From: B21-G16 sp003644825 [NCBI: Candidatus Zhuqueibacterota bacterium]
GTDB taxonomy: Bacteria > SM23-31 > B21-G16
Length of the DNA: 5,593 nt
Assembly: GCA_003644825.1 (NCBI GenBank)
Contig: QNDJ01000138.1
Span: forward strand, 1-5,593
Direction of reading: 5' to 3'
Shown here: one piece after another, positions 2,420 to 5,539 of the stretch
Numbering within the stretch: position 1 is the stretch's first letter
Layout: the number at the start of each line of letters is the position of its first letter
The notes under the pieces: model-generated
What the model was told of the DNA's origin: nothing
Seen by the model: the letters and a program-made list of their open reading frames with translations, nothing else
The model's database searches: none
Translations under genes and position numbers: made by a program

Positions 2420-5400
2420 TTACAATCTAAACTTTTTTAGCCTTAAAGAATTAGTTACCACAGATACCGAACTGAAAGCCATAGCAAGGCTTGCAAACAT
2501 CGGATTGAGTAATATACCAAAAAATGGATATAGAATACCAGCGGCAACTGGAATACCAAGTGTATTGTAAGCAAAAGCCCAGAAAAGATTTTCTTTTATT
2601 GTACGCATTGTTTTTTTAGATAATTTTATTGCATCAATAACTCCTTTCAGGTCATCTCTAATGAGAGTAATATCCGAAGCTTCCAGTGCAACGTCTGTTC
2701 CTGAACCTATAGCAATGCCAACATCTGCCTGAGCAAGGGCTGGTGAGTCATTAATTCCATCACCAACCATAGCGACTGTTTTTCCTTCTTCCTGTAGTTT
2801 TTTTATTTCTAATGCTTTTTTATCAGGTAATACTTCAGAAAGAATCCTTGTTACACCAGCCTGTTTTCCGATTGCTTCAGCTGTTCTTTTGTTATCTCCA
2901 GTAATAATGCCGACTTCAAGATTCATATTTTTTAGTTCACTTATTACCTGTCTGGAATTTTCTTTAAGTGTATCTGCAACAGCAATAATCCCTATAATTT
3001 TTTTATTTAATGCTATAAACATAGGTGTTTTTCCTTCTTCTGCCAGTTTTTTAGCTATTTTGATAGAATTTTCGGTTCTGGTGTTCATTTCAGTAATAAA
3101 GCTTTCGTTCCCCAGGATAATCTCATTTTCCTGTATTTTTGCTTTAATTCCTTTACCTGGAATGGCTTCAAAATGTTCTACTTTTTTTAGAGGAATATTC
3201 ATTTTTTTAGCCTCATTTACAATTGCTTCGCCAAGAGGATGTTCTGAACCCTTTTCTGCAGATGCAGAATACATTAAAATATCTTTTTTTTCAAAATTAT
3301 TAAAATTAATTACATCTGTAACCCTTGGTTTTCCAATTGTAAGGGTACCTGTTTTATCAAAAATAATAGAGTTTATTTTATGAGCTGTTTCAAGAGTTTC
3401 TCCACCTTTAATTAAGATTCCTTTTTCAGCTCCTTTTCCTGTTCCAACAATTATAGCTGTAGGGGTGGCTAATCCCATTGCACAGGGACAGGCAATTATT
3501 AAAACAGCAATAAAATTCAAGAGAGCATAATCAAACGAAGGACCAACAAATGACCATACAATAAAAGTAAGCGCAGCAATAGAAACTACAATAGGGACAA
3601 AAATACTTGCAATTTTATCAGCAATTCGCTGTATTGGGGCTTTAGAACCCTGAGCTTCCCGGATCATCTTTATAATTTGAGAAAGAAAAGTGTCTTTTCC
3701 AATGCGGGTAGCTCTAAACTTAAAAGTTCCTGTTTTGTTTATTGTTGCGCCTACAACTTCATCTCCTTTTTTCTTTTCTACAGGCATACTTTCACCGGAA
3801 ATCATCGATTCATCCACCGATGAATATCCTTCTTCAACAACTCCGTCAACGGGGATTTTTTCTCCTGGTCTAACAATTATAAGGTCTCCCGGTATTACCT
3901 CTTTTATAGGTATGTCTATTTCTCTGCCATCTCTTATTACCCTTGCAGTTTTAGCCTGTAAATCCATCAGCTTTTTAATAGCTTCAGATGTTTGACCTTT
4001 TGCTCTTGCTTCCAGTAATTTTCCAAGAAGTATCAGTGTTATAATAACGGCTGCTGTGTCAAAATATACTGACTGGATGAGGTTACTTCCTTCGAAAAAA
4101 CCAGAGTAGAATGTAGCAAAAGTGCTGTAGATAAATGCAGAAGCAGTTCCAATTGTAACGAGTGAGTTCATATCGGCAGTTTTGTGTTTTAGAGCAGTCC
4201 AGAATCCTTTATAGAATCTGTTTCCTCCGTAAAAAATAACAGGTGTGGTTAAAATAAAAAGAATATAGAAACTGATTTGTTCTTCTATTTGAGAAATATA
4301 AGGAAAAAATCTTTTAAAGCTAAAAATCAAAATAAGCCCTGAAAAGATTGCGCTAAAGATGAATTTCTTTTTTAGTTTTTTGTAACTTTTTTCTCTTTCT
4401 CGTTTTTCGACTTCAGCAGGTTCTTCACCTTCTTCGACTTCCAGAACTTTATAATTACCAGCCCCTGCAACAGCTTCTTTAAAATCTTTTATGTTCACAA
4501 TTTCAGGAACAAATTCGACAATTGCATTTTCTGCTGCAATATTTACTTTTGTTTCAATAACACCATTTAAATTATTTAAAGCTTTTTCAACTTTACCTGC
4601 ACAGGATGCACAGGTCATCCCTATAATTGGTAGAACAACCCTTGAAGTAATAGGTTCATAACCTGCATCTTTTATTTTTTTAGTAAATTCAGAAGCACTT
4701 GTTTTATTTTTATCATAGACAATTGTGGCATTCTCGGATGCCAGATTAACGTTAACTGAATCCACTCCATTTATATTTTTCAAGTTTTTTTCAATTTTCA
4801 TTACACAACTTGCACAGGTCATTCCTTTTACAGGTATTGTAATGGAGCTTTTTCCTTCTGTTTTTATATCTGGTTCAATTGAAGCTGGTTTTTCTATTGG
4901 ACAGTCTTTGGCACTTTCCATATTTAAATTTTCAGTATATTTTTCTGGATTTTTATTAAACTCATTAAGGCAACTTTCAGAACAAAAATAATATTTCAGA
5001 CCTTTATACATTACTTTAAATTTTGCTGTTTTTTCATCGACTTCCATTTTACATATAGGGTCTATAACCATTTTTTTTCTGCTATGATTAGTAATAATTT
5101 CAACTATTTCAGGATAGTAACTGGTTCTTTTTTTCAAAGCCGAATCAATTACTTTGATAATTATAAAAGATATGACTAAACCTACAAAACTACCGATAAT
5201 TCCATATTTTTCACTTCCACTTTCACTTAGAGGAGTAAATTTTATGCCTATTATATAACCAGCAATAAGAAAAACAACTGGAAGAATATAAGTTATCAGA
5301 GCGGCTGAAATCTTTTTTGAGGGTTTACATTTGATTTTTACAAGGTCTCCAACTTTAGCATTTTTTTTGTCTATAACATTGAGAAAATCTGAGCCTTTAG

Positions 5401-5515
5401 CGAAAGCTGAACACCCACTTTTAGAACCACAGGAAGAACATGCTTGACTGTAGTTAATTTTTATGGTGGAAATTTCCCCCTTTTTTTCAACTACTTTTCC
5501 TATTTCATTTTCCAT
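2420..5515 (-). CDS. RseC-YHS-HMA-HMA fused Cu(I) P1B-type ATPase
   Basis: A 1031-residue copper-exporting ATPase of the inner membrane with extra N-terminal domains. Residues 1-145 resemble RseC/MucC, with Cys26, Cys29 and Cys35 (CX2CX5C) and two helices (about 69-90 and 105-122). A YHS domain follows (149-194; Cys155, Cys178, Cys182), then two HMA domains with GMTCASC at 231-237 and 299-305, and a charged linker (360-384). The ATPase core has eight predicted helices, the actuator SGES (573-576), CPC in helix 6 (676-678), phosphorylated Asp720 in DKTGT, HP (759-760), TGD (872-874) and GDGIND (918-923). CPC, YN (983-984) and MxxSS (1012-1016) mark the Cu(I)/Ag(I) subgroup. Ordinary CopA has about 800-850 residues; the excess is the RseC and YHS parts. 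Two RseC helices leave the metal-binding domains in the cytoplasm, so the fusion is topologically sound, with ten helices in total. The start is chosen for its strong ribosome binding site; Met149, where a conventional YHS-type ATPase would begin, has none. No catalytic residue is missing. RseC is otherwise known from SoxR reduction and Rnf-type contexts; its role here is unknown. Confidence 0.93.
5071..5078 (-). other. A8 run at the RseC/YHS junction
   Basis: On the coding strand, eight A residues cover the end of codon 146, codons 147-148 and the A of the ATG for Met149 (frame AGA AAA AAA ATG). With one A fewer, the frame would read TGG TTA TAG and stop, giving a 150-residue RseC. With one A more, it would stop at TAA after residue 155. 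In either case the ATG would open a conventional 883-residue YHS-CopA. The run is therefore a possible slippage site or the scar of a fusion. A second A8 run lies inside the RseC part (5361-5368), so such runs are not unique to the junction. Confidence 0.5.
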
Positions 5516-5523
5516 TTTTAGTT

Positions 5524-5530
5524 CTCCTTT
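5524..5530 (-). promoter_or_regulatory. Strong ribosome binding site, RseC-ATPase gene
   Basis: AAAGGAG on the minus strand sits eight bases before the ATG at 5515. It is the best Shine-Dalgarno match in the window and decides the start in favour of the full-length fused protein over Met149, whose upstream sequence is A-rich without a GGAG core. Confidence 0.8.
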
Positions 5531-5539
5531 ATTTTAAAT

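Follow-up and report, generated by a model that had tools for sequence, protein, structure and literature searches.

Contig QNDJ01000138.1 of the metagenome assembly GCA_003644825.1 (B21-G16 sp003644825, Candidatus Zhuqueibacterota), analyzed here as one stretch of 5,593 nucleotides (nt) and called the window below, carries on its minus strand a single open reading frame, which runs from an ATG at position 5515 to a stop codon at 2420 and encodes 1,031 amino acids (aa) with no internal stop. An RseC domain, a YHS domain, two HMA domains, and a copper(I) P1B ATPase follow one another in this frame. The features assigned to it and to its 5' side were as follows.

2420 to 5515, minus strand: RseC-YHS-HMA-HMA-Cu(I) P1B ATPase, one frame of 1,031 aa (Pfam and NCBIfam)
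5102 to 5494, minus strand: RseC_MucC domain, residues 8 to 138 (Pfam PF04246, 96.8 bits, cutoff 24.4)
5411 to 5440, minus strand: CX2CX5C cluster, C26-C29-C35 (read from the sequence; conserved across 34 RseC rows)
5240 to 5323, minus strand: predicted first RseC membrane helix, residues 65 to 92 (AlphaFold model of residues 1 to 200)
5129 to 5215, minus strand: predicted second RseC membrane helix, residues 101 to 129 (same model)
5071 to 5078, minus strand: run of eight A (T on the plus strand) at the RseC/YHS junction, codons 146 to 149, ending in the A of ATG149
4934 to 5068, minus strand: YHS domain, residues 150 to 194 (Pfam PF04945, 60.8 bits, cutoff 30.3)
4655 to 4840, minus strand: HMA domain 1, residues 226 to 287 (Pfam PF00403, the better of two stretches)
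4445 to 4630, minus strand: HMA domain 2, about residues 296 to 357, limits set by eye (second Pfam stretch; GMTCASCA motif)
3422 to 3961, minus strand: E1-E2 ATPase (actuator) domain, residues 519 to 698 (Pfam PF00122, 215.4 bits, cutoff 28.1)
2723 to 3373, minus strand: HAD hydrolase domain (P and N domains), residues 715 to 931 (Pfam PF00702, 130.2 bits, cutoff 26.4)
5519 to 5533, minus strand: 15 bases 5' of ATG1 with the Shine-Dalgarno-like AAAGGAGAA (-7.1 kcal/mol with the anti-Shine-Dalgarno sequence)

Pfam domain calls were judged by curated cutoffs. A first-pass annotation of this DNA, whose span of 4930 to 5515 corresponds to the RseC and YHS parts of the frame, had read a complete RseC-like module, a YHS domain, and a full Cu(I) ATPase in one frame, and Pfam and NCBIfam matches over the cutoffs confirmed this composition. 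Compared with RseC_MucC as that annotation had proposed, residues 1 to 148 gave a full-length match (profile positions 1 to 129 of 130), which by score places them in this family, and a genome-wide RseC search put the match at the same coordinates. The HMA profile scored 112.8 bits (cutoff 24.8) over its two stretches, and the NCBIfam family of copper-translocating P-type ATPases (TIGR01511) scored 639.3 bits (cutoff 397). Against the CopA equivalog PRK10671 (NF007952) the frame reached 740.3 bits, below the required 1316. Judged by these profiles, the pump is a copper-type P-type ATPase outside the PRK10671 equivalog. Its membrane core contains IACPCAMG, which we take to be the CPC motif of the membrane core of Cu(I) P1B ATPases. 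By family membership, the protein is predicted to be a Cu(I) exporter.

The two parts of the protein meet at the codons AGC AGA AAA AAA ATG GTT, with the run of eight A exactly between the RseC and YHS parts. This run is the strongest reason to doubt the fusion. With one A fewer the first frame would end after residue 150 and with one more after residue 155, both at the usual length of an RseC, so that an insertion or deletion at the junction is possible. On this alternative account, rseC and a YHS-HMA-HMA copA would be overlapping or abutting genes, with RseC ending at 150 or 155 residues and CopA starting at ATG149, and the long frame would stem from a one-base error or from natural slippage at the run. 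The exact position of the run fits such an arrangement, since losing or gaining one A would stop RseC only a few codons on. ATG149 would also suit the start of a YHS-containing CopA (the CopA of locus L128, described below, begins MPIDPICGM), separate rseC genes lie ahead of copA in three other loci (L140, L189, and L181), and of 104 starts sampled in this genome, 25% have no stronger Shine-Dalgarno pairing than ATG149. However, the frame contains two other runs of eight A, at 5361 to 5368 (residues 50 to 52, inside the RseC match) and at 3284 to 3291 (residues 742 to 744, inside the HAD match), and both are in phase. Within frames of at least 200 aa, 47 A/T runs of 8 were counted in 298,617 bases of this genome, a total that includes the window. 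The share of runs near 3' ends was much the same for runs of 8 (4/51, 8%) as for runs of 6 (49/572, 9%), with 20/198 for runs of 7, and there was no excess of frame breaks at runs of 8 in this genome (299 kb); runs of 9 were rare (1 inside frames, 1 near a 3' end, and 7 outside). Moreover, ATG149 has no Shine-Dalgarno pairing (-0.1 kcal/mol) compared with -7.1 kcal/mol for ATG1, and 57% of 358 internal ATGs were as strong as or stronger than ATG149. Because the other runs of eight A are in phase, runs of 8 show no frame-break excess, and ATG149 lacks a Shine-Dalgarno sequence, the fusion is probably real: we regard a single protein across the RseC/pump join as quite likely and two separate genes as unlikely.

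To see how widely the fusion occurs, we ran PF04246 against 432 different genomes (386, 37, 5, and 4 in successive sets), of which 154 (128, 17, 5, and 4) had an RseC match over the cutoff. The window's match was the only one of these in a frame longer than 430 aa, and the fused copy was the only RseC found in its own genome, which is 83.6% complete; a profile search for a separate rseC elsewhere in this genome, suggested at first reading, thus found none within that completeness. RseC frames over the cutoff of 202 to 330 aa (genomes G073, G056, G211, G124, G325, G372, and G244) and of 221 to 223 aa (G423 and G424) were taken without one-by-one inspection, as were weak matches below the cutoff in long frames of 812 aa (G380) and 691 aa (G389). 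One 426-aa RseC frame (L027, G234) was considered as a fused relative and set aside; by sight it looks like an out-of-frame extension across the neighboring gene. Contigs of named genomes were scanned with residues 1 to 198 and six peptide patterns (62 loci), a scan that reaches close relatives only, and no fused relative was found; the RseC profile gave a single, stand-alone RseC in those 62 loci (L096). The best match to residues 1 to 198 (L049) was likewise rejected as a fused relative, being a copper ATPase with a C-terminal YHS domain whose last membrane helix aligns with an RseC helix. In this gene (L049:1492-4125, plus strand, from a Euryarchaeota metagenome-assembled genome), the terminal helix and YHS domain mimic the RseC-YHS join in tblastn. 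Among the plasmid matches listed (the best 20 of 24), no record was fused.

Several results of this survey speak against the fusion as an established protein. It is known from one metagenome assembly only. Three of the six genomes of the window's phylum have an RseC over the cutoff, of which only the window's is fused, and the two others carry a separate RseC. Conservation of the fusion in related genomes, raised as a check by the first-pass annotation, was not borne out: none of the five other phylum genomes (63 to 90% complete) shows it. That annotation had also named separate rseC and copA genes in relatives, with this frame as an assembly artifact, as grounds for giving up the fusion. Separate rseC-copA neighbors do exist in other lineages; no genome shows the frame to be the product of an insertion or deletion. 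Since no other RseC match over the cutoff occupies a frame that exceeds 430 aa and one of six phylum genomes has the fusion, it is an orphan on this evidence.

The RseC part showed the hallmarks of its family. C29 and C35 were invariant and C26 was present in at least 90% of 34 aligned RseC rows, and the CX2CX5C motif was common to 8 metal-linked and 2 Rnf-linked rows of this alignment. An AlphaFold model of residues 1 to 200 (mean predicted local distance difference test score [pLDDT], 81; predicted template modeling score, 0.60) contained a β-rich N-terminal part with strands and short helices between residues 4 and 62, the two long helices, a strand at residues 136 to 142, and then the YHS fold. 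The motif with two helices that had been read from the letters at first was therefore found again, as C26/C29/C35 in the sequence and as the helices 65 to 92 and 101 to 129 in the model. In the alignment, the RseC part ends about where stand-alone RseC proteins end; NHSRKK is followed directly by M149, which opens the YHS start MVIDPICKM. Residues 146 to 155 (the linker and the first YHS residues) fell below a confidence of 50. A full-length model placed the RseC helices at residues 68 to 91 and 103 to 130 and was confident for the YHS, HMA, and ATPase parts (mean pLDDT, 81.5) and poor for the RseC part (blocks of 32 to 56), where its alignment had placed RseC rows on the C terminus; it is therefore silent on how RseC packs against the pump. 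Foldseek with residues 1 to 200 gave no match in the PDB at an E value of ≤0.001. As the model adds two helices and both ends of Escherichia coli RseC are cytoplasmic according to the available part of PMC11729352, the YHS-HMA-ATPase part would stay in the cytoplasm, in keeping with the earlier expectation that the fusion leaves the ATPase topology intact.

We then compared the surroundings of rseC genes. Flanks of up to 5 kb were collected for 120 RseC places, to which contigs of two more in the phylum and the window were added (123 loci), and were searched for E. coli Rsx-type proteins, a CsoR-type protein, and the window's YHS-HMA-ATPase part. Loci counted as Rnf linked if they had at least three Rnf types, or RnfC, or RnfA with RnfE. 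This set leaves out 12 weaker places over the cutoff (G146, G119 [twice], G035, G373, G260, G088, G137, G317, G182, G201, and G213) and the RseC places of the 46 genomes searched later (37, 5, and 4), and part of the neighbor names were assigned by sight. Metal genes lay in the neighborhood of rseC in 10 of the 122 other loci, from seven families. In L140 (also L004) the order is csoR-rseC-copA, with the ATG of copA two bases after the rseC stop; in L189 copA follows rseC after ∼0.25 kb; and L181 has a YHS-thioredoxin reductase-like fusion, rseC, and copA. L128 encodes a DUF302 protein, a YHS lipoprotein-like protein, a YHS-HMA-HMA CopA, a cupredoxin, RseC, and a DsbD-type protein, while L205 has copA, an HMA protein, and csoR and, 1.6 kb on, rseC followed by a SHOCT protein, so that its metal genes lie upstream of rseC. 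A stand-alone YHS gene starts 15 to 17 nt after the rseC stop in L206 and L211, and an SO_0444-type (Cu/Zn) permease 0 to 14 nt after it in L129, L134, and L136. The L136 permease has a C-terminal HMA domain and scored 379.8 bits (cutoff 300). The L129 permease (222.2 bits, cutoff 300) and the thioredoxin reductase part in L181 (213.7 bits, cutoff 343.45) were below their cutoffs, and both names are therefore given by resemblance. As in the fusion, rseC comes first and the exporter or YHS gene second in 8 of the 10 loci (exceptions, L128 and L205). The fusion thus fits a recurring pairing of rseC with metal genes.

Some of these neighbors are unusual in themselves. The L181 gene directly before rseC (5490-6554, minus strand) fuses a YHS domain to the thioredoxin reductase-like flavoprotein, and the L129 permease gene directly after rseC (4704-5693, plus strand) has a YHS domain inserted in the middle of the protein (residues 145 to 187). 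The L134 permease gene (3999-4985, minus strand; named by sight) also lies directly after rseC. L132 (4983-5384, plus strand) and L136 (58-540, plus strand) are near-identical rseC genes from two genomes of one genus, each with a cysteine desulfurase-like gene (by sight) after it; the SO_0444 permease gene stands between the two in L136 only.

A metal gene lay within 150 nt downstream of rseC on the same strand in 6 of the 74 loci that have a gene there, and within the same distance upstream in 1 of 83. When all neighbors were clustered, the metal-protein cluster had the most direct same-strand downstream members (7) among the 40 clusters printed; an RnfB-like cluster had 6 directly downstream and 7 directly upstream. 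The metal cluster spans 13 loci, three of which (L168, L214, and L229) have no match to the copA/YHS/HMA query and were probably drawn in by the thioredoxin reductase half of the L181 protein. The 10 left include L142, and L205 lies outside the cluster; counted as 10 loci, it ranks below some Rnf-type, response-regulator, and CBS-like clusters. Large P1B ATPases occurred within 5 kb of rseC in 7 of the 122 loci (1.09 Mb of flanks), against an expectation of 0.57 (Poisson P for ≥5, 3e-4). This count includes L142, where the ATPase lies 3.4 kb off among unrelated genes and which is not among the 10 metal-linked loci. The density behind the expectation, 0.52 per Mb, is a rough figure taken from 8 to 10 P-type ATPase places in the phylum's six genomes (19.3 Mb); P-type ATPases may be denser in other genomes. 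Since the density is guessed from six genomes and two of the 7 loci share a family (six families in all), the chance figure is indicative only.

A tree of RseC sequences (138 columns; the short row L143 was dropped) was poorly resolved, with 53 of 119 inner branches open. Metal-linked RseC proteins did not form one clade: starred branches force at least four changes, and the linkage needs 8 changes on the tree, compared with a mean of 10.7 after shuffling (as low in 3 of 500 shuffles). Metal linkage has therefore changed more than once on this tree. The ATPase core of L128 is 59% identical to the window's and second by score, after L098, of 62 other frames, a comparison set drawn largely from a YHS-based scan.

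These results suggest an unrecognized role of RseC in metal handling, with rseC beside metal-export genes in some other bacteria and fused to a pump here. We propose that a Cu(I)-exporting P1B ATPase took up at its N terminus an RseC of the sort that is encoded beside metal exporters in some other bacteria. Immediately ahead of the YHS and HMA domains, the RseC part would contribute two membrane helices and a cytoplasmic cluster of thiols, possibly of the iron-sulfur (Fe-S) type. As a redox module, this cluster might keep the copper-binding thiols of the exporter reduced, and so able to load Cu(I), or might make pump activity depend on redox state; its electrons would come from a reductant of the cell, for instance a thioredoxin reductase-type flavoprotein or the Rnf complex. 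That RseC serves the exporter here as a membrane-anchored thiol/Fe-S module, most likely by redox, is a proposal we consider about as apt to be right as wrong. A redox role is favored over a direct copper relay because the neighbors of rseC include reductant-type proteins as well as metal sites; these are the thioredoxin reductase-like protein of L181 and the DsbD-type protein of L128, one locus each.

In a copper relay, the RseC cysteines, held at the membrane, would themselves be the first site to bind Cu(I), and the metal would move on from them to the YHS and HMA domains. That the RseC, YHS, and two HMA domains follow in this order on one polypeptide, with ∼7 to 11 residues as linker, would suit this, as would the recurrence of YHS and HMA partners beside rseC. 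However, E. coli RseC can hold an Fe-S cluster on the same cysteines (PMC11729352, as far as its available text goes), and the motif is shared by metal-linked and Rnf-linked rows alike, which is a weak point given how few Rnf rows there are. We regard a relay as rather unlikely.

Alternatively, the RseC part might still serve an Rnf complex, its join to CopA being a by-product of gene order with no function in copper handling. The window's genome has two Rnf-type clusters (L271, G000:C145, and L272, G000:C18; RnfD-type by PF03116), neither of them beside the fusion gene and neither with an rseC on its contig, and no RseC other than the fused copy was found. At 83.6% completeness, however, another rseC may be missing from the assembly, and rseC repeatedly adjoins metal exporters in genomes where no such fusion exists. 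This possibility appears to us the least probable of those considered. Genes next to the L272 cluster resemble, by sight, those for cytochrome c and NiFe hydrogenase.

Further observations count against a metal-related role for RseC. None of the Rnf, CsoR, or CopA-type proteins sought was found in 78 of the 123 loci, and 16 RseC loci adjoin Rnf-type genes. The window's RseC groups with that of L128 but also with that of the unlinked L144 (support, 85; not starred), and the separate RseC proteins of the two other phylum genomes stand apart from it on the tree. The RseC most like it by sequence is that of L174 (82.8 bits, 35% identity), a locus whose flanks are free of metal genes, and that of the metal-linked L128 comes seventh (67.3 bits).

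If the redox proposal is extended beyond this protein, RseC might in one branch of its uses assist metal exporters generally, as an Fe-S/thiol module in the membrane that ties export to the electron supply of the cell. We offer this generalization only tentatively, and with the same doubt its corollary, that P1B ATPases, SO_0444-type permeases, and YHS proteins elsewhere have RseC at their side as a subunit of its own, which has been fused into the pump here. RseC has been tied to sigma-E, to SoxR reduction, and to Rnf without a settled molecular job. Its fusion to a copper pump and its repeated siting beside different metal exporters point to metal or thiol handling, and would, if true, link electron-transfer accessory proteins to metal export.

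The remainder of the window holds, at 704 to 2413 on the plus strand, a gene for a glycoside hydrolase family 57/1,4-alpha-glucan branching enzyme-like protein (Pfam Glyco_hydro_57 and BE_C), which is convergent with the pump gene, the two stop codons being 6 nt apart. At ∼48 to 82 and 222 to 251 lie two copies, in opposite orientations, of a CATTGCGAG...GTGGCAATC element. Two further copies occur in 289 kb of the same genome, and the element may therefore be a dispersed repeat.

In the literature searched (best matches only, with most subscription journals outside it), no publication tied RseC to metal export and, as the first-pass annotation had supposed, no RseC-YHS-HMA-ATPase protein was described. 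The available parts of two reports bear on the domains involved: a YHS domain in an adenylyl cyclase probably senses copper (PMC4626032), and deletion of rseC abolished autotrophy in Clostridium ljungdahlii, where RseC, according to the authors, probably regulates the Rnf genes positively (PMC9124969). The solved Cu(I) ATPases 3j09 and 3rfu share the P1B core and align over residues 296 to 1029 (E value, 8.5e-210) and 415 to 1029, respectively, but their matches stop short of the window's RseC and YHS parts. Among the loci compared here, L128 (genome G006) likewise encodes a YHS-HMA-HMA-ATPase with rseC 0.4 kb off on the same strand; there, in contrast, rseC is separate and lies downstream, after the cupredoxin gene. 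L140/L004 (G029) also has RseC directly before a copper ATPase, after a gene for a CsoR/RicR-type metal-sensitive repressor, but as two genes in different frames, two bases apart, and with an ATPase that has three HMA domains and no YHS domain. The RseC of the E. coli SoxR-reducing system resembles the window's RseC in its two helices, its cytoplasmic ends, and its cysteines, which carry the same numbers (26, 29, and 35) and can hold an Fe-S cluster. It differs in being a stand-alone protein that partners the Rsx complex and whose gene belongs to the rpoE-rseABC operon, and the available text of PMC11729352 mentions no metal exporter as a partner. According to the same text, RnfF of Rhodobacter capsulatus is a known joined form of the RseC family: as in the window, an RseC-like part is joined to a protein of its own system, but there the RseC-like N terminus is followed by an ApbE-like C terminus, and the partner is not a transporter.

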